DNA from: a virus
DNA length: 39,850 nt
IMG/VR virus record: IMGVR_UViG_3300026078_000050
Location: 1 to 39,850 of that record
Reading direction: 5' to 3' (one strand)
Shown here: positions 7,100 through 26,757 of the stretch, in pieces
Position numbering within the stretch: the first letter of the stretch is position 1
How the letters are laid out: every line of letters starts with the position of its first letter
Made by a program: the position numbers and the translations under genes
Notes under the pieces: model-generated
The model's database searches: none
What the model was told of the DNA's origin: nothing
What the model saw: the letters and a program-made list of their open reading frames with translations, nothing else

Positions 7100-7893
7100 C
7101 ACGACGTCCTTAGCGCCCAGTAGTGGATGATGTTCCCGGTTCCGCCGGAGATACCGACGGTGAAGCTGGTCGAGCTGGACGCGGTAATCACCCAGTAGCG
7201 ATCGGCGACGTCGCCCTGCAGTGTCACGATCGGGTGCATCGCATCGGCCATGGTGGCGCCGTACCCGTGGGTGAGCAGGATCGGCCCGGTGCCCGCGACG
7301 GCACCCCCGACGTGCACGGCGGAGTGCCCGCCGATGGTTTGGGCAGTCGCCCATTTCCCGCGCAGGAAGATGGTTTCGTCGTCGGTGAATTCCAGGTACG
7401 AGTCCGCGCCGGTGGCGCCGATCTGGTGGCCGAACACCGAGTTACCGTTGTAGAACGACACCTTGCCGCCGGTGATCGCGTGGCCAGCAATGGCCTCGCG
7501 CTGCATGACGTAGTTCCCGGCCGTCATGGACAGGCTGACCTGGTCGGTGGTGTTGTCGTCGTCGTGCAGTTCGATCCGCGGGTTCCCGGCGGGGTTGGGG
7601 TTGATCGCGACCCGGTTACCGGCCGTCGTGGCGGCCGAGATCGAGCCGAAGAGGATGTTCCCGGCGGCGTCCCGGATGCGCACGACCTGATGTCCGGCGC
7701 CGTCCGGTCCGATGTAGAGCAGCTCGTTGCCCGTCGCGCCAAGCATCTTCAGGTACGCGGCGTTGAGCAGGGTGAGGCCGCCGGCGGCGATGGAGGCCGA
7801 GGAGAGCCCGACGGACTTCCACAGGTCGCTGATCTGCTGCTCGACTTGCTTGATCCGGTCGAGCAGGTTGCTCGGGAGGTTGATCTGTCCCAT
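7099..7893 (-). CDS. Putative tail fibre / receptor-binding protein
   Basis: 264 aa. A short N-terminal coiled coil (LLDRIKQVEQQISDLWKS) is followed by long beta-rich, Gly/Ala/Thr/Asn-rich stretches, with segments such as ELLYIGPDGAGHQVVRIRD and SYLEFTDDETIFLRGKW typical of fibre shafts and knobs. This composition and its place downstream of the Gp37-like tail protein fit an adsorption protein. TGATG overlaps tie it to both neighbours. No enzymatic motif seen. Confidence 0.65.
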   Translation of the reverse strand: MGQINLPSNLLDRIKQVEQQISDLWKSVGLSSASIAAGGLTLLNAAYLKMLGATGNELLYIGPDGAGHQVVRIRDAAGNILFGSISAATTAGNRVAINPNPAGNPRIELHDDDNTTDQVSLSMTAGNYVMQREAIAGHAITGGKVSFYNGNSVFGHQIGATGADSYLEFTDDETIFLRGKWATAQTIGGHSAVHVGGAVAGTGPILLTHGYGATMADAMHPIVTLQGDVADRYWVITASSSTSFTVGISGGTGNIIHYWALRTS

Positions 7894-20501: not shown

Positions 20502-21632
20502 TCAGCGGGCCGTGCCGATCCGCTCGCGGTGGGGCTGGCGGAACAGCTGGGTGGGTGCGTTACGGATGTGCTCGCGGATCTCGGCCTGCGTGGCGCGGAC
20601 CTTCGCCTCGTACGAGCGCTTCGCGGCGGGGTCGAGCGCGGCCGCGGCCTGGAGCTTGTCCTTGCGGACCTTCCGCTCGAGCGCGCGGAGCTGCTGCCGG
20701 GCCTTGTCGCCTTCGGGGTCGGCGGTGTCGGTCGGCAGCCGGGTGACGCCGGGCAGGTACGCGGAGAGGGAGTGCCGGCAGTTCGGGTGCATCAGCCCGG
20801 CGGCGACGGCCTCGCCGACCGTTCCGGCGACGTGCACGGTGACGTTGCGGTCCTGGGTGCCGTGCAGCGCCTGGACGCGGCGCTCGCCGGCCGGGCCGGA
20901 CCGGGCCAGCACCTTGCCCTCCCACGGGCGGCAGCGTGCGCACTCCTGCGGGGCGTTGGAGACGACCACGAGATCGATCCCGGCCGCGCCGAGCCGGTCG
21001 AGGCCGCCCTGCACCGCGGCCTGGGCGGTACCGGTGCGGGAGGCCATCTCCACATAGGACGCGAGGTCCCACCGGCGGCCGCGCTTATCGACGAACCCGG
21101 TGATGCCGCGGCTGAGCAGCTCTTCCCAGGCGCGCTGGGCGCTGCGGAGCCGGGTTTCCCGCCCGGTGAGCGTGCCCGTCAGCAGCGTCTTGGCCATGAC
21201 CTCGCGGTAGGCGTCGAGGTCCCACCGGAGGATCCGCACGTGCGTGCCGAGCAGCTTCGAGGTGAGCGCGTACACCATGCGCTGGATCGCGCCGAGCTGC
21301 GGCAGCTGGCGGCGGAGGTCGGCGAGCATCGCGTCCGTCATGCCCGTGCGCTTGGCGAGTTCGGCTGTCGCGGCCTCGCCGCCGCGGTGGTAGGCCAGGA
21401 CGACGGCCTGCTCGACGGTGCCGGTCAGGTCCCGCTGGATCTGGTTCAGCAGCGACCGGGCGCCGCGGGAGAGGATGCCGAGCGCGGCCAGCTGCTTCTC
21501 CGCGTCCGGGGGTTCGTCGATGCCGGCGCGCAGCTGGCGGGAGATCTGGTCGGCCAGCTGGACCTCGAGCCCGTGGTAGAGCTCGGCGATCGTCCCGGCG
21601 ATGTCCGCGCCGAGCGTCCGGTCGACCGGCAC
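20502..21632 (-). CDS. MuF-like minor head protein (Phage_min_cap2 family)
   Basis: 376 aa starting MPVDRTLGADIAGTIAELYH. N-terminal helical part with an amphipathic pattern, middle part (SRGITGFVDKRGRRWDLASY, VEMASRTGTAQAAVQGGLDR), then the zinc-like signature NAPQECARCRPWEGK with a later MHPNCRHSLSAYLPG. This C-x-x-C...H-P-N-C-R-H order is the hallmark of the Phage_min_cap2 group. It sits inside the capsid near the portal. Directly downstream of the portal gene. Confidence 0.88.
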   Translation of the reverse strand: MPVDRTLGADIAGTIAELYHGLEVQLADQISRQLRAGIDEPPDAEKQLAALGILSRGARSLLNQIQRDLTGTVEQAVVLAYHRGGEAATAELAKRTGMTDAMLADLRRQLPQLGAIQRMVYALTSKLLGTHVRILRWDLDAYREVMAKTLLTGTLTGRETRLRSAQRAWEELLSRGITGFVDKRGRRWDLASYVEMASRTGTAQAAVQGGLDRLGAAGIDLVVVSNAPQECARCRPWEGKVLARSGPAGERRVQALHGTQDRNVTVHVAGTVGEAVAAGLMHPNCRHSLSAYLPGVTRLPTDTADPEGDKARQQLRALERKVRKDKLQAAAALDPAAKRSYEAKVRATQAEIREHIRNAPTQLFRQPHRERIGTAR

Positions 21633-21636
21633 AGGG

Positions 21637-23202
21637 CTACCCGGCCGCCGGCGGCTGGTCGGCTGGCGGTGTGGTGTCGCCGGTGAAGGTGGCCGGGTCG
21701 GTCAGCGGCGGCGGCGTGCCCTCGGCCGTGATCCGCTTGACCTCCTCGCCGACCTGGGTGTCGTCCCAGTCGGGGTGGAACATCTTGACCTTCGTCTCGG
21801 TGGACGCGGCGCGTGCGGTCTCCAGCAGCGCGAGCGTCTGCGCCAGGCTGGCCGAGTCCTGTTGGACGGCGTCGGGGAAGTTCACCGTCGGCGGGGTTGC
21901 CGGATCGACGGACCATCCGAAGTGGACCTGCCCGATCTTCAGCAGGGCCTGGAGGATCTCGCCCAATCGGGGACGCACGTACTTGATCTTCTTGTCCCGG
22001 GTGATCAAGCTCTTCCGCTCCCGCGCGGCGACCTCCGTCGCGGTGACCGCTACGTCGCCGCTCAACCCGAACGTCTGCTGCGAGTAACCCGCCGTCGTCA
22101 CGACCCGGCCGATCAGGCCGAGCATGGTCTTCTCGTGCTCGTCGACCCGGATCGCGAACTGCTGCATGGTGAGCCCGGTGCTGCCGTCCGATGCCGGGAT
22201 CATCGACAGGCCCTCGTAGGCCTCGCGGTCCGGGTCGAAAAGCGCGCCCTTCCCGGGACCTCTGTCTTGCAAGAACGCCTCGGGGACGATCACGCGGGCC
22301 TTGGCCAGGCGGAGGTCACGCATCCACGAGGTCATCGTCTCGTCGAGCGCGTCCATCAGCCCTTCGGAGCCGTCGAGGTCCGACCGGCCGAACGGCGCGC
22401 ACGCCGGCGAGGACCGCCACAGCCGGTTCGGTTTGATGTTCGGGTAGTAGACCGCGGTGAGCTGGTCGATTCCGGTGGCGATGGTGTCGCCCTGGTCGAC
22501 GACGTCGGCGAGGTTCAGCGTCTCCTTGTACTGGTTGAGCGGCACTTTGCGGCCCAGTTCGGTTTCGCTGCCTTCGTAGACGCCGTGCAGGATGTAGCCC
22601 GGTTCGTGCCGCTCGAGGTGCCGGACAACGAGCGTCTTCTCCGACGCCAGCTGCCGCACGAACGTCACCGCGGAGAGCTTCCCGTACTGCCACTCCGGCA
22701 CCGCGGCGTCGGCGTGCACCGCGGACAGCCACGGCCCGTCCGGGTTGACGTCGGTGTCCCACACCACCCGCAGGTACACACCGGACAGTGCCGCGGCGAC
22801 CTCGGCGGATTCGAGCAGCGTGGCGTGCAGCTCGTCACCCAGCAGCTCGTCGAGCTTGGTCTGGGTGCCGGCGTGGTCGGAGGTGAGGGTGATTGGCTCG
22901 CTGAACAGCAGATCGGCGGACGTGGCGGCGATGTCCGCGGCGAGCGGCACATGCACCTTGGTCCGCTTCTCGCCGGGGGTGATCGGCTGGCCCCAGAACC
23001 ACCTCGCCACCGTGCCGACCAGGCCGCCGCGCATCTGCGACGGGCGGACGTGCGGCCGGTTGACGAGCTGCTGGCCCTGCAGCTGGTACACCAGCGACAG
23101 TTCGTCGGGGTTGCCGGAGTACCAGGCCGACCAGGCGCGCATCGCGTCGAACGCGTCGACGTACTCCTTCGGCGGCCAAGGACCACCATCGGGCAGCGGC
23201 AC
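21637..23202 (-). CDS. Portal protein (SPP1 Gp6-like)
   Basis: 521 aa, GTG start at 23202. Dodecameric ring at the unique capsid vertex through which DNA is packaged and ejected. Typical landmarks: early YVDAFDAMRAWSAWYSGNPD, LAADIAATSADLLFSEPITL, KTLVVRHLERHEPGYILHGV, SEGLMDALDETMTSWMRDLR (stem/wing helices), and the helical VTATEVAARERKSLITRDKK crown-proximal segment. Length and order match SPP1-type portals. Flanked by MuF-like and terminase-side genes as expected. Confidence 0.92.
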   Translation of the reverse strand: MPLPDGGPWPPKEYVDAFDAMRAWSAWYSGNPDELSLVYQLQGQQLVNRPHVRPSQMRGGLVGTVARWFWGQPITPGEKRTKVHVPLAADIAATSADLLFSEPITLTSDHAGTQTKLDELLGDELHATLLESAEVAAALSGVYLRVVWDTDVNPDGPWLSAVHADAAVPEWQYGKLSAVTFVRQLASEKTLVVRHLERHEPGYILHGVYEGSETELGRKVPLNQYKETLNLADVVDQGDTIATGIDQLTAVYYPNIKPNRLWRSSPACAPFGRSDLDGSEGLMDALDETMTSWMRDLRLAKARVIVPEAFLQDRGPGKGALFDPDREAYEGLSMIPASDGSTGLTMQQFAIRVDEHEKTMLGLIGRVVTTAGYSQQTFGLSGDVAVTATEVAARERKSLITRDKKIKYVRPRLGEILQALLKIGQVHFGWSVDPATPPTVNFPDAVQQDSASLAQTLALLETARAASTETKVKMFHPDWDDTQVGEEVKRITAEGTPPPLTDPATFTGDTTPPADQPPAAG

Positions 23203-23203
23203 G

Positions 23204-23374
23204 TCAGACCTTCTTTCGGATGCCCTTGCGGGGCGGGAGCGTCTTGAATGGACGGCTGGCTTTGTTGGTCTCGGCCCAGCGCTTCACCCAGCCGCCGTGG
23301 CCGAACTTCGCGTGCGCCCAGCGCCACTGCGCGCGCGAGACGAACTCGTGCTGACCGTTGCCGCGCCCGGGCAC
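23204..23374 (-). CDS. Small basic Trp-rich protein, 56 aa
   Basis: 56 aa from a GTG at 23374. The motif FVSRAQWRWAHAKFG followed by WVKRWAETNKASRPFKTLP is that of a widespread small phage protein found next to portal or terminase genes (SxAQWRW...A...WA.ET pattern). The stop is one base from the portal start. Function unknown. Confidence 0.75.
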   Translation of the reverse strand: MPGRGNGQHEFVSRAQWRWAHAKFGHGGWVKRWAETNKASRPFKTLPPRKGIRKKV

Positions 23375-23461: not shown

Positions 23462-23740
23462 TCAGATCTCCTGCTTGGAGACGGCGTACCGGGCGGCGTC
23501 GAGGCGGTCACCGACGGCGAGCTGCCGCATCCGTTCGAGCGCCTCGTCGACCTGCGTTCTGTTCCAGCACGGCGGGAAGGTCGCCGGGTCGTGCTCGCAG
23601 CCCTGGCAGCCGTTGCGGTGGCCGCGCGCCGACCGGTGGGTGTCGCACAGCCGGTCGGAGGTGATCTGGCCTTCGCAGTCCTCGTTGTTGAAGCGGCACG
23701 GCACGTAGACCTCTTCGGACACGAGCGGGCGGTCCCACAT
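23462..23740 (-). CDS. Cys/His-rich zinc-binding protein
   Basis: 92 aa starting MWDRPLVSEEVYVPCRFNNE. Cys and His residues are spaced like zinc ligands (VPCRFNNEDC, LCDTHRSARGHRNGCQGCEHD, FPPCW), suggesting two small zinc sites in the first 60 residues; the C-terminal third is a helix (VDEALERMRQLAVGDRLDAA). Similar Cys-rich small proteins occur in actinophages near packaging genes. Function unknown. Confidence 0.75.
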   Translation of the reverse strand: MWDRPLVSEEVYVPCRFNNEDCEGQITSDRLCDTHRSARGHRNGCQGCEHDPATFPPCWNRTQVDEALERMRQLAVGDRLDAARYAVSKQEI

Positions 23741-23925
23741 CAGACTTCCTCCTCGACGGTGATCTTCACCAGGGCGTCGACGGGGACGTGCAGCTCGGCG
23801 AGGCCTTCGAGCGCGGCCATCGCGAGGTCTTCCCAGCTGATGTCGCCGTCGTTCTCCTGGCGCATGTGGTGGGCCATCCGCTCGGCCAGCTCGGCCCGGG
23901 TGGCGTACCGACGGCGCGTGACCAT
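23740..23925 (-). CDS. Hypothetical protein, 61 aa
   Basis: 61 aa from the ATG at 23925 (MVTRRRYATRAELAERMAHH), with overlapping starts and stops on both sides. Mostly helical with an acidic centre (QENDGDISWEDLAMAALEGL) and an acidic end. The start chosen is decided by the overlap with the next gene's stop. Unknown function. Confidence 0.68.
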   Translation of the reverse strand: MVTRRRYATRAELAERMAHHMRQENDGDISWEDLAMAALEGLAELHVPVDALVKITVEEEV

Positions 23926-24455
23926 CAGGCTTCTCCCGCTCGGCGCCAACGAACTCGGCCGTTCTCGAACTCGAACGCCAGACCCGAGCGCTGCTCGATC
24001 GTCTGCTTCACGGCCTCGTCGAGCTCCGGGTCGCTCAGGTGGATCGTGTAGAACTTCGCGTGGTGCTTGGGGCGTGTCCCGAAGTAGACGAACGACGGGG
24101 TGCGGTCGCGGTCGAAGTACCCGTCGCGTCGCACCACCTCGAGCTGCTCGGCCGTCAGCGCGTCCCAGGCGATCCACTCCACGGTGTAGCCGGTGGGCAC
24201 GCTCGGCCCCCAGCTGGAGCCGATGACGTACAGCCGCTCAGGGGCCTGGTTCGCCACGTCGACGTAGAACTTGTGCGGCCACCCATACTTCTGGTCGGCC
24301 CAGTTCGGTAGCCAACTCGGCTCGGCGGCCAGGTCCTCGGGGTGGATGCTGCCGCACCACGAGCAGCGCCGGAAGTGCTCGCCGTGCTCCGGCTCGCGCC
24401 AGGACCAGTCGAGTCCGCGCACCATCGCGTCGGGATGGACCTCTTGCGCGGCCAT
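23925..24455 (-). CDS. Hypothetical protein with CxxC motif, 176 aa
   Basis: 176 aa from the ATG at 24455 (MAAQEVHPDAMVRGLDWSWR), overlapping the Acb2-like gene's stop (TGATG). A single CSWCGSIHPED motif (about residues 31-41) suggests half a zinc site. The rest is rich in Trp/Tyr/Phe (LPNWADQKYGWPHKFYVDV; TPSFVYFGTRPKHHAKFYTI), a compact mixed alpha/beta domain. It could be a partner of the preceding gene, but there is no family to say so. Confidence 0.7.
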   Translation of the reverse strand: MAAQEVHPDAMVRGLDWSWREPEHGEHFRRCSWCGSIHPEDLAAEPSWLPNWADQKYGWPHKFYVDVANQAPERLYVIGSSWGPSVPTGYTVEWIAWDALTAEQLEVVRRDGYFDRDRTPSFVYFGTRPKHHAKFYTIHLSDPELDEAVKQTIEQRSGLAFEFENGRVRWRRAGEA

Positions 24456-24778
24456 CAGCGCGGGCCGGCCTTGATCGCGTCGCCGATCGGGTCGGCGGGC
24501 TGGAAGACCGCGCGGTTGAGGTGGTAGAAGGCGTACTCGAACTGGGTGCGGGCCATCGCCAGCTGGCGCGGGTCGACCGGCACGCCGGCGTCCAGGTACC
24601 GCTGGAGGAACAGGGCGGTGCGCTCCTCGTGCGACTTGACGAAGTTCACCAGCTCCAGTGCCTCGACGGTCTGCGGCTTGTAGCCGGTGACGTTCTGGCT
24701 GCCGGTGTCGACCAGCTCGCTCAACGGTGGGCACTGCTCGTCGTTCTGGCTGTCCGCCTCGATCTTCTCGTCGCTCAT
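24455..24778 (-). CDS. Acb2-like cyclic-nucleotide sponge (putative anti-CBASS)
   Basis: 107 aa. From about residue 31 it follows the Acb2 family pattern: a G-Y start (TGYKPQTVEA), helix LELVNFVKSHEERTALFLQ, then the best-conserved block DPRQLAMARTQFEYAFYHLN ending RAVFQPAD. In the family this is the D-P-R...A-R-T...F...L-N-R-A-V...P signature. Acb2 proteins are small helical hexamers that bind the cyclic oligonucleotide signals of CBASS (and related nucleotides) and so block that abortive defence. As I recall, Y11 and K26 are key in the PaMx33 protein; Y33 and K48 here have the same 15-residue spacing. An N-terminal extension of about 25 polar residues is not part of the family core. Expressed in the packaging operon, ATGA overlap with the 54-aa gene. 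Confidence 0.72.
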   Translation of the reverse strand: MSDEKIEADSQNDEQCPPLSELVDTGSQNVTGYKPQTVEALELVNFVKSHEERTALFLQRYLDAGVPVDPRQLAMARTQFEYAFYHLNRAVFQPADPIGDAIKAGPR

Positions 24779-24939
24779 CGGGCCTGCTCCGGCCCGTCGA
24801 GCGGCACGATGGCGTCGATGTCCGCGCCGTGCTTTGCGAGTGCGTCGAGCACGGCGTTGGCCGCGTCCACGTGGACGTACTCGGGGGCGAGGATGGCGAC
24901 GACCTGGTCGCGGGTCGCGAACTTCTTCGGCTGAGTCAC
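24775..24939 (-). CDS. Hypothetical protein, 54 aa
   Basis: 54 aa from a GTG at 24939 (MTQPKKFATRDQVVAILAPE). Overlaps both the terminase stop (GTGA) and the Acb2-like start (ATGA), so it is coupled to both. Amphipathic helix pattern; no family recognised. Confidence 0.72.
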   Translation of the reverse strand: MTQPKKFATRDQVVAILAPEYVHVDAANAVLDALAKHGADIDAIVPLDGPEQAR

Positions 24940-26240
24940 GCTGCCTGTCCTTCCTGGACGTAGGGGCGCCAGAGCGCCTCGGTGGTGTGGATGCCGTACC
25001 GGCCGCCGTCGAGCGAGTGGTCAGCCGCCTTGATCGGGGCGTCTTCGCCCTTCTCGGCCTTGTCGGGGTCCCAGCTGTAGCCGCCGACCTCGGAGATCCA
25101 GCCTTCGCAGGACTCGTGCACCCGCAGCAGATCGCGGGCGAGCAGCGAGCTGACAGTGCGGATGCCGTCGAGGACCTCGTTCCGCGCGAGCGTCGGCGTG
25201 AGGCCGTCGCGGTGCAGCTGCTGAACGAACGACGCGGCCGAGGGGTCGACGACCGTCCACTCGGGCCAGATGCCCTTCGCGGCCTCGAAGTGCGGGTGCG
25301 GCAGCTCGCCGAGCCAGCTCCGAAACTTCTCGCTGTACTCGACGTCGGTGAGCGCGCGGCGCTGGTGCTTGCTGTCCCATCGCCACTCGTGGGTGAGGTA
25401 CAGGCGTCGGGTGCCGTCCTGCTCCGGGTGGGCCAGGCCCAAGATGAGCGCGGCGAACGGGTTCGTGGTGCCGTAGTCGATGCCCGCGCTCAGCCAGCGG
25501 TCGATCTGCGGGAGCTCCTTGACGACGTGCCGGGCCGGGTCCCACATGTCGTACACCGCGCCCTCGGCCAGGCACCACTCGCCGAGGATGAACCGCCGGT
25601 ACCAGAGCCCGACGTACTGCCGCTTCAGCAGCGCCACGTACTGCGGGTCGAGGCTCGGGTTGTCGTCGAGGGTGAAGTGCCACGAGCGGAGCCCGACCTC
25701 GGCCGCGCGGAGGATGAAGTCCTTCCGCAGCCAGTGCGCCGGCCCGTCCGGGTTGGTGGTGGCGAACAGCTTCGCGCCCGGCACCCGCAGCCGGGACAGC
25801 AGCATCATCCAGAACCCGCGGGGCAGCAGCGTCGCCTCGTCGGCGTAGGCCAGCGACACCGTCGCGCCACGGATCTTGCCCTCGGCCTTGACGTCGTTCG
25901 CGCCGACGATGTGCACCGTGCGGCCGAGGATCGTCGCTATCCCGGCGCCGCGGGTGTGGTGCACGTGCTTGGCCAAGGCACCGAAGATCTCGACCGACTG
26001 CAGCGGCTCGATCAGGTTCCGCTCGATCGTTTCCTTGGTCTTGCCGCTGATCACGATCAGCCCGCGCGTGGGCGCGTCGGCGAGGGCGATCAGGAAGGCC
26101 AGCAGCGACGCGATGGTCTTGCCGGAGGACACCGCGCCGGACCAGAGCGCGATCTGCGGTGTCTGGCCGGACTCGACGATGGAGCGGATCTGGTTCCGCG
26201 ACATGGTCGAGAGCAGGTGGGAGAAGTCAGGCGCCGGCAT
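24936..26240 (-). CDS. terL: Terminase large subunit
   Basis: Packaging ATPase and nuclease. 434 aa. ATPase domain: Walker A SGAVSSGKT (residues 34-42), Walker B VSLAYADEAT (128-137), and coupling motif TTNP (161-164). RNase H-like nuclease domain with likely metal ligands D255 (GIDYGTTNPF), D332 (VVDPSAASF) and D407/D411 near the end (AADHSLDGGRYGI). Length normal for the Terminase_6/PBSX-like type. Overlaps the small-subunit gene by 14 bp. Confidence 0.96.
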   Translation of the reverse strand: MPAPDFSHLLSTMSRNQIRSIVESGQTPQIALWSGAVSSGKTIASLLAFLIALADAPTRGLIVISGKTKETIERNLIEPLQSVEIFGALAKHVHHTRGAGIATILGRTVHIVGANDVKAEGKIRGATVSLAYADEATLLPRGFWMMLLSRLRVPGAKLFATTNPDGPAHWLRKDFILRAAEVGLRSWHFTLDDNPSLDPQYVALLKRQYVGLWYRRFILGEWCLAEGAVYDMWDPARHVVKELPQIDRWLSAGIDYGTTNPFAALILGLAHPEQDGTRRLYLTHEWRWDSKHQRRALTDVEYSEKFRSWLGELPHPHFEAAKGIWPEWTVVDPSAASFVQQLHRDGLTPTLARNEVLDGIRTVSSLLARDLLRVHESCEGWISEVGGYSWDPDKAEKGEDAPIKAADHSLDGGRYGIHTTEALWRPYVQEGQAA

Positions 26241-26757
26241 CCTCGGCCGGGCCTTCCGCCTCCATGTGGTCGTACGCGGCCTGCAGCCCGGCGGCGAGCG
26301 CGCCGATCATGCTGCGCGCCTCGTCGACGTCGTCGCCGACGGTGTCGTGGTCGTCGAGCCGCATCGAGGTGGTCGCCGCGGCGGTGGCCGCCTGCATCAG
26401 CTTGAGCTTGTCGACCGGTGTCGGCTCGTGCTGCGTCCAGGTCTGGCGCACGAACTCCTTGCCACCGTGGTCGATGTAGGTGTGCGGCATCCAGATCTGC
26501 TCACGCAGCCGCTCTGCATCGTCGAGCAGGTGCAGCTGCAACGCGGCCCGGCGTGCGCGGGCGTCGGCAACCTTGGCCTCCGTGGCGGCCTTCACGCCCT
26601 CGCGGTCGAAGCTCAGGCCTTCCTCGTCGGCGATCTTCGACACCGTGGCGCCGGAGCGGCCGATGGCCTTCGCGATGGCGTTGCGAGTCTCGCCGGCGGC
26701 GTGGAGGTCACGGACCTTACGCCGGTCCTCGTCGGTGATCGGGCGCGCTCGTGCCAC
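26227..26757 (-). CDS. terS: Terminase small subunit
   Basis: 176 aa, GTG start at 26757. N-terminal HTH (about residues 8-48: TDEDRRKVRDLHAAGETRNA, AKAIGRSGATVSKIADEEG) for recognition of the packaging site, a central helical coiled oligomerisation part (about 55-85) and an acidic C-terminus that would contact TerL. Position immediately before terL and first gene after the 323-bp non-coding interval supports it and suggests the packaging site is close by. Confidence 0.88.
   Translation of the reverse strand: MARARPITDEDRRKVRDLHAAGETRNAIAKAIGRSGATVSKIADEEGLSFDREGVKAATEAKVADARARRAALQLHLLDDAERLREQIWMPHTYIDHGGKEFVRQTWTQHEPTPVDKLKLMQAATAAATTSMRLDDHDTVGDDVDEARSMIGALAAGLQAAYDHMEAEGPAEDAGA

Follow-up and report, generated by a model that had tools for sequence, protein, structure and literature searches.

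The product of the gene at 24455-24778 is an Acb2-family sponge by homology, and the gene lies between terL and the portal gene, in an interval that is a variable accessory slot in related phages. The window, namely the stretch of DNA analysed here, is the whole 39,850-base virus record, with a GC content of 70%. The assignment would place an anti-CBASS-type sponge in a temperate actinomycete phage, and nucleotide-signalling defence and its inhibitors have been little studied in such phages. The family, the monomer fold, the conservation of the ligand-associated residues and the placement in the slot were computed in this work.

Gene, operon and host

The genes concerned are located on the minus strand in the operon order terS-terL-54aa-acb2-176aa-61aa-92aa-56aa-portal, and a head gene follows the portal gene. 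The features are as follows.

26227..26757, minus strand: HTH protein of 176 aa, probable small terminase (Pfam HTH_38 1.3e-6, PHROG 5536 3.9e-57)
24936..26240, minus strand: terL, upstream border of the slot (Pfam Terminase_6N 6.5e-11, PHROG 2 2.1e-40)
24775..24939, minus strand: 54-aa protein between terL and acb2 (ORF; 4-nt overlap with acb2)
24455..24778, minus strand: acb2, 107-aa Acb2/Tad1-hairpin protein with an ATG start; hairpin at residues 32-93
23925..24455, minus strand: 176-aa orphan phage protein, whose start overlaps the acb2 stop by 1 nt (TGATG)
23740..23925, minus strand: 61-aa small protein (MVTRRRYATRAELAERM...), also found in the slot of relatives
23462..23740, minus strand: 92-aa cysteine-rich protein in the slot (ORF)
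23204..23374, minus strand: 56-aa small basic protein at the portal end of the slot (ORF)
21637..23202, minus strand: portal, downstream border of the slot (Pfam SPP1_portal 2e-10, PHROG 533 6.9e-111)
20502..21632, minus strand: minor capsid / head morphogenesis protein, after the portal (Pfam Phage_min_cap2 9.7e-52)

We infer that 26227-26757 encodes the small terminase because it is located directly upstream of terL. The 54-aa protein showed no significant match in Pfam, PHROG or NCBIfam, and no match was obtained for acb2 and its neighbours in NCBIfam or PADLOC.

An earlier reading of the DNA letters (hereafter the sequence-only reading) had proposed a 107-aa frame in a packaging operon, overlapped by its neighbours. 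The frame starts with ATG on the minus strand, and its GC by codon position (0.68/0.39/0.97) is coding-like and typical of the phage. The location in the packaging operon is also as proposed. The overlap of acb2 with the 54-aa gene before it amounts to 4 nt, and a single nucleotide is shared with the 176-aa gene. According to these overlaps, acb2 and its neighbours look translationally coupled. The stretch 23740-24455, however, had been taken as one gene and is actually two, encoding the 176-aa protein (23925-24455) and the 61-aa protein (23740-23925). The quoted sequence blocks are all present (G32-Y33, V44-N45-F46-V47-K48, D69-P70-R71, L73-A-M-A-R-T78, F84 and L87-N-R-A-V-F-Q-P94). The extra polar stretch described at the N-terminus is present as well, but compared with close homologues it is really an insertion between MSDEKI and DTGSQN. 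The insertion site reads MSDEKIDTGSQNVTGY in the relative L015 and MSDEKIEADSQNDEQCPPLSELVDTGSQNVTGY in the window, and the inserted segment is disordered by prediction. The Acb2 relatives at the same position are 69-77% identical to the window protein.

At 46-939 the window encodes an integrase and at 1693-2625 a DNA-binding/repressor-like protein; genes for an endolysin, a major head protein and a tape measure protein are present too. With these genes, a temperate phage is probable. Among the named relatives, the nearest is a prophage-like contig of Amycolatopsis taiwanensis DSM 45107, in which terL is 71% and Acb2 is 74% identical. The integrase, the repressor-like protein, the 70% GC and this terL identity support the earlier view of an actinomycete prophage.

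SMODS CD-NTases are found in 22 of 250 Amycolatopsis-family genomes, this family being that of the nearest named relative. Relevance of the sponge to the host is therefore plausible. The A. taiwanensis genome gave no match for a SMODS-type CD-NTase. Thus there is no direct pairing of prophage and target in this strain, where the sponge may act on a signalling system of another kind. A. taiwanensis has one more Acb2-hairpin gene, different from the first (L130, 1443-1707); it is located in another prophage-like region, right after an endolysin-like gene. Likewise, the Acb2 homologue of Pseudomonas phage 5400 (L010) adjoins an endolysin.

Family membership and predicted fold

The window Acb2 matches Pfam PF24729 (Acb2/Tad1 hairpin) over positions 1-58 of 58, with 45.9 bits against a cut-off of 27 bits (E 6.3e-12). 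Since this match, at such an E-value, extends across the full 58-position model, the quoted blocks are not a chance resemblance. PHROG 717 was matched at 6e-8. T4 Vs.4 was already found by a single-sequence search of the PDB (E 0.003). A profile of 23 sequences, the window protein and relatives gathered from IMG/VR, gave E 9e-13 for T4 Vs.4/Acb2 (7uq2), and 1.6e-11 (8h2j) and 2.2e-11 for the structures of Pseudomonas Acb2 p26. The same profile gave only E 0.37 for Tad1.

The AlphaFold2 monomer shows a confident helical hairpin (helices 38-62 and 70-91) with core pLDDT above 90, and residues 1-30 are modelled mainly as coil of low confidence. The model has the architecture of Acb2, in which a short N-terminal segment is followed by two long antiparallel helices. 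According to the Foldseek comparison with the PDB, ranks 1-8 are all Acb2 chains (probability 0.75-1.00), and rank 9 is ColE1 Rop (probability 0.20). For a protein of this size with two helices, weak Foldseek E-values are to be expected (best 0.035). Membership of Tad1 was rejected, since the model contains no N-terminal beta domain and the sequence match is not significant (E 0.37). These results agree with the Acb2 identity proposed before: the family profile is matched, the protein is closer to the solved Acb2s than to Tad1, and at the monomer level the Acb2 chains are the only good matches in the PDB.

Ligand-associated residues

In the 23 aligned sequences, G32, Y33, K48, E51, F84, R89 and A90-P94 are invariant. 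As for the residues associated with the ligand, Y33, K48 and F92 are conserved in 23 of 23 sequences, and T78 in 22 of 23. Window K48 is aligned with K26 of Pseudomonas Acb2 and K23 of T4. This lysine, K26 in the Pseudomonas protein, is presumably ligand-contacting, as stated in the sequence-only reading. The 15-residue spacing noticed in the sequence-only reading holds, since Y33-K48 corresponds to Y11-K26 of PaMx41 (8h2j) and to Y8-K23 of T4. Y8, T68 and F82 of T4 are aligned with window Y33, T78 and F92. In T4 Acb2, the binding of dinucleotides is disrupted by Y8A; F82 makes a base-stacking contact with the bound dinucleotide, and its replacement in F82C lets the phage escape (PMC12657218). 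T68M lowers the affinity (PMC12657230).

The terL-portal slot in relatives

The best 80 terL relatives in IMG/VR were surveyed, and the distance from terL to portal was measured. Among these 80, the interval varies from about 0 to 4.3 kb. An Acb2 homologue is located in the interval at six of the 80 loci (L012, L014, L015, L016, L024 and L052). Slot Acb2s are also present in the window, in the A. taiwanensis prophage (L006) and in a further genome of the same family (L129). As L014 and L024 are identical in sequence, there are eight distinct slot Acb2 sequences.

In the Acb2 tree, the proteins of the window, L014, L015 and L006 form one group (100/98), L012 is grouped with relatives from other contigs (97/93), and L052 and L129 fall in the Pseudomonas type (94/98). 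A single clade of all slot Acb2s, a group defined by position, was rejected for these short proteins (AU p 1.6e-5) in a test that followed the viewing of an earlier tree. The slot Acb2s are of at least two lineages. Between L012 and the window, terL is 93% and the 176-aa protein is 87% identical, whereas Acb2 is only 45% identical. This difference looks like gene exchange in place.

In L016 (IMGVR_UViG_2868041214_000003), whose terL is 84% identical to that of the window, a gene for Tad2, an anti-Thoeris sponge, is located directly before acb2 with a 4-nt overlap (7302-7520, plus strand, 72 aa; PF11195 92.1 bits, PDB Tad2 2e-15). Tad2 is found in only one of 250 Amycolatopsis host-family genomes, and PF24729 is matched in five of the 250. 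Therefore, the pairing of Tad2 and Acb2 in L016 is unlikely to be due to chance.

The Pfam search of 42 representative slot proteins gave mostly unknowns. The named matches are Acb2, Tad2, RyR, HNH_3, DUF7218, DUF7701, an Rv2179c-like exoribonuclease and a PnuC-like NMN transporter. As several of these named occupants are not obviously anti-defence, the slot is not purely anti-defence. A PnuC-like membrane protein is encoded in the slot of L078 (2768-3022); we take it as the slot protein matching PF04973 (NMN transporter), and it is possibly tied to NAD-depleting defence. A protein of 107-138 aa (IGRIVHY...VLLDGNDSLWVTSR) is present in the same slot of phages with no Acb2 (L013, 1449-1772; L017; L056, 7265-7681), and is a candidate for slot cargo.

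The slot is marked by known sponges, namely Tad2 and Acb2s from two or more lineages, so that this fixed and exchangeable position in the packaging operon is worth mining for further counter-defence genes. That the interval is a dedicated site for counter-defence cargo, which would also hold unrecognised inhibitors including the 176-aa protein, seems rather doubtful. We found no description of the slot in the open-licence literature.

The 176-aa neighbour

The 176-aa protein (23925-24455) has 10 relatives in IMG/VR and belongs to a small phage family, in which a CxxC motif and the block KYGWPHKFYVD are invariant. No match was obtained in Pfam (above the cut-off), PHROG, NCBIfam or the PDB sequences. 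The AlphaFold2 model is confident (pLDDT 83.7, pTM 0.74), and its comparison with the PDB folds gave no match (best probability 0.05). The gene is located beside acb2 in three slots (the window, L015 and L012). It is absent from the acb2-bearing slots of L006, L014, L016 and L024, and L093 and L094 carry it in other settings with no nearby Acb2. Because of this patchy co-occurrence, the co-function of the neighbour with acb2, which had been suggested from the overlap, is not supported so far.

Proposed mechanism and alternatives

Acb2 proteins are hexamers that sequester the cyclic di- and trinucleotides of CBASS without cleavage (review PMC12043709). We consider it very probable that the window gene encodes an Acb2-family sponge that acts by sequestration and is exchanged through the terL-portal slot. 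The assembly, the ligand and the target system proposed below are those of the characterised members. About six copies of the window Acb2 would form the hexamer, with the dinucleotide pockets between subunits. Tyr33 and Phe92 would stack on cyclic dinucleotides, Lys48 and Thr78 would help to hold them, and cyclic trinucleotides may occupy a separate central site. Then the second messengers of the host CD-NTases would be withheld, uncut, during infection or prophage induction, the CBASS effectors would stay untriggered, and the phage cycle would be completed. To judge from the operon, acb2 is presumably coupled in translation to the packaging genes and would be made in the late phase. The slot would swap such genes among phages, and different phages would carry different sponges. 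Acb2 can also be a liability, because the Panoptes defence is triggered by Acb2 (PMC12657218, PMC12657230).

The hairpin might instead be a sponge for a mainly non-CBASS ligand, such as the gcADPR of Thoeris (Tad1-like) or the cyclic oligoadenylate of type III CRISPR. The hairpins of Acb2 and Tad1 are joined in one Pfam family, A. taiwanensis has two hairpin genes and no SMODS CD-NTase match, the Tad2 gene is located in the same slot of L016, and the hairpin tip of the window Acb2 is short; all of these are consistent with such a ligand. However, the sequence is far nearer to Acb2 than to Tad1 (9e-13 vs 0.37), the model, largely coil of low confidence up to residue 30, has no N-terminal beta domain of the Tad1 type, and the Tyr, Thr and Phe of Acb2 are retained. 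We regard this ligand type as improbable.

It is very unlikely that the protein reuses the hairpin fold for an accessory role in structure or packaging, for instance as a connector or a chaperone. Most terL relatives carry no Acb2 in the slot (present at 6 of 80 loci), homologues are located beside lysis genes in other phages or prophages (L010, L130), and the ligand residues are conserved, although the tight overlap with the packaging genes and the place between terL and portal would suit such a role. A decayed or inactive remnant of Acb2 is hardly credible. Its N-terminal insertion might be read as decay, and nothing points to decay directly. On the other hand, the ORF is intact with phage-typical codon-position GC, every family-invariant residue is kept, and relatives at the same place are 69-77% identical. 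An Acb2-family sponge acting by sequestration thus remains the reading that we prefer.

Comparison with known sponges

T4 Vs.4 (7uq2) and the window protein share the hairpin and the pattern G-Y...N-x-x-K...A-K/R-T...R-A-V-F-Q-P, with Y8/K23/T68/F82 corresponding to Y33/K48/T78/F92. T4 Vs.4 differs in its length of 88 aa, in a tip about 15 residues longer and in having no N-terminal extension. The two proteins are 36% identical overall, and the gene context of T4 is unrelated. The Acb2 of PaMx33/PaMx41 (p26; 8h2j, 8h2x, 8ixz) likewise has Y11/K26 at the positions of Y33/K48, and is matched by the profile at E 1.6e-11. In contrast, its tip is about 18 residues longer, and it belongs to another clade, which is joined by L052 and L129. 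Tad1 resembles the window Acb2 in the C-terminal two-helix hairpin and in the shared Pfam family, whereas it has an N-terminal antiparallel beta domain and a sequence match of only E 0.37. In Caulobacter phage Jess A, gp16 (L008, 3710-4276) has an Acb2-type hairpin fused to an N-terminal domain, about 100 aa long, that is uncharacterised.

The tyrosine and the threonine are 45 residues apart in the window protein, against 60 in T4 and 63 in PaMx41. These values indicate that the hairpin tip of the window protein is 15-18 residues shorter. Thus, the protein may differ from the solved Acb2s of T4 and Pseudomonas in the range of its ligands and in the central trinucleotide site. A short tip is common among the relatives, and the homologue of Pseudomonas phage 5400 has one too, so this feature is not specific to the window. 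Such a hairpin could serve as a minimal Acb2 in studies of what hexamer formation and trinucleotide binding require.

The family is already known in actinobacteriophages, and covers proteins named by their authors as Acb2/Tad1-hairpin or as cyclic-oligonucleotide sequestering proteins. Such proteins are annotated in Microbacterium phage Statler (PMC13348362) and in Mycobacterium phages Xandras and BigBubba (PMC11953737), and BFVD has entries of this kind for Mycobacterium phage MalagasyRose and Streptomyces phage KimJongPhill. The passages of PMC13348362 and PMC11953737 make no mention of the terL-portal slot or of the Tad2 neighbour. As far as these passages go, the annotated hairpin proteins are like the window protein in the family and in the actinomycete hosts, and unlike it in the phage types. 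The window protein adds one member to this family, and the added value lies in the exchangeable terL-portal slot, the two kinds of sponge in it and the neighbour with an orphan fold.
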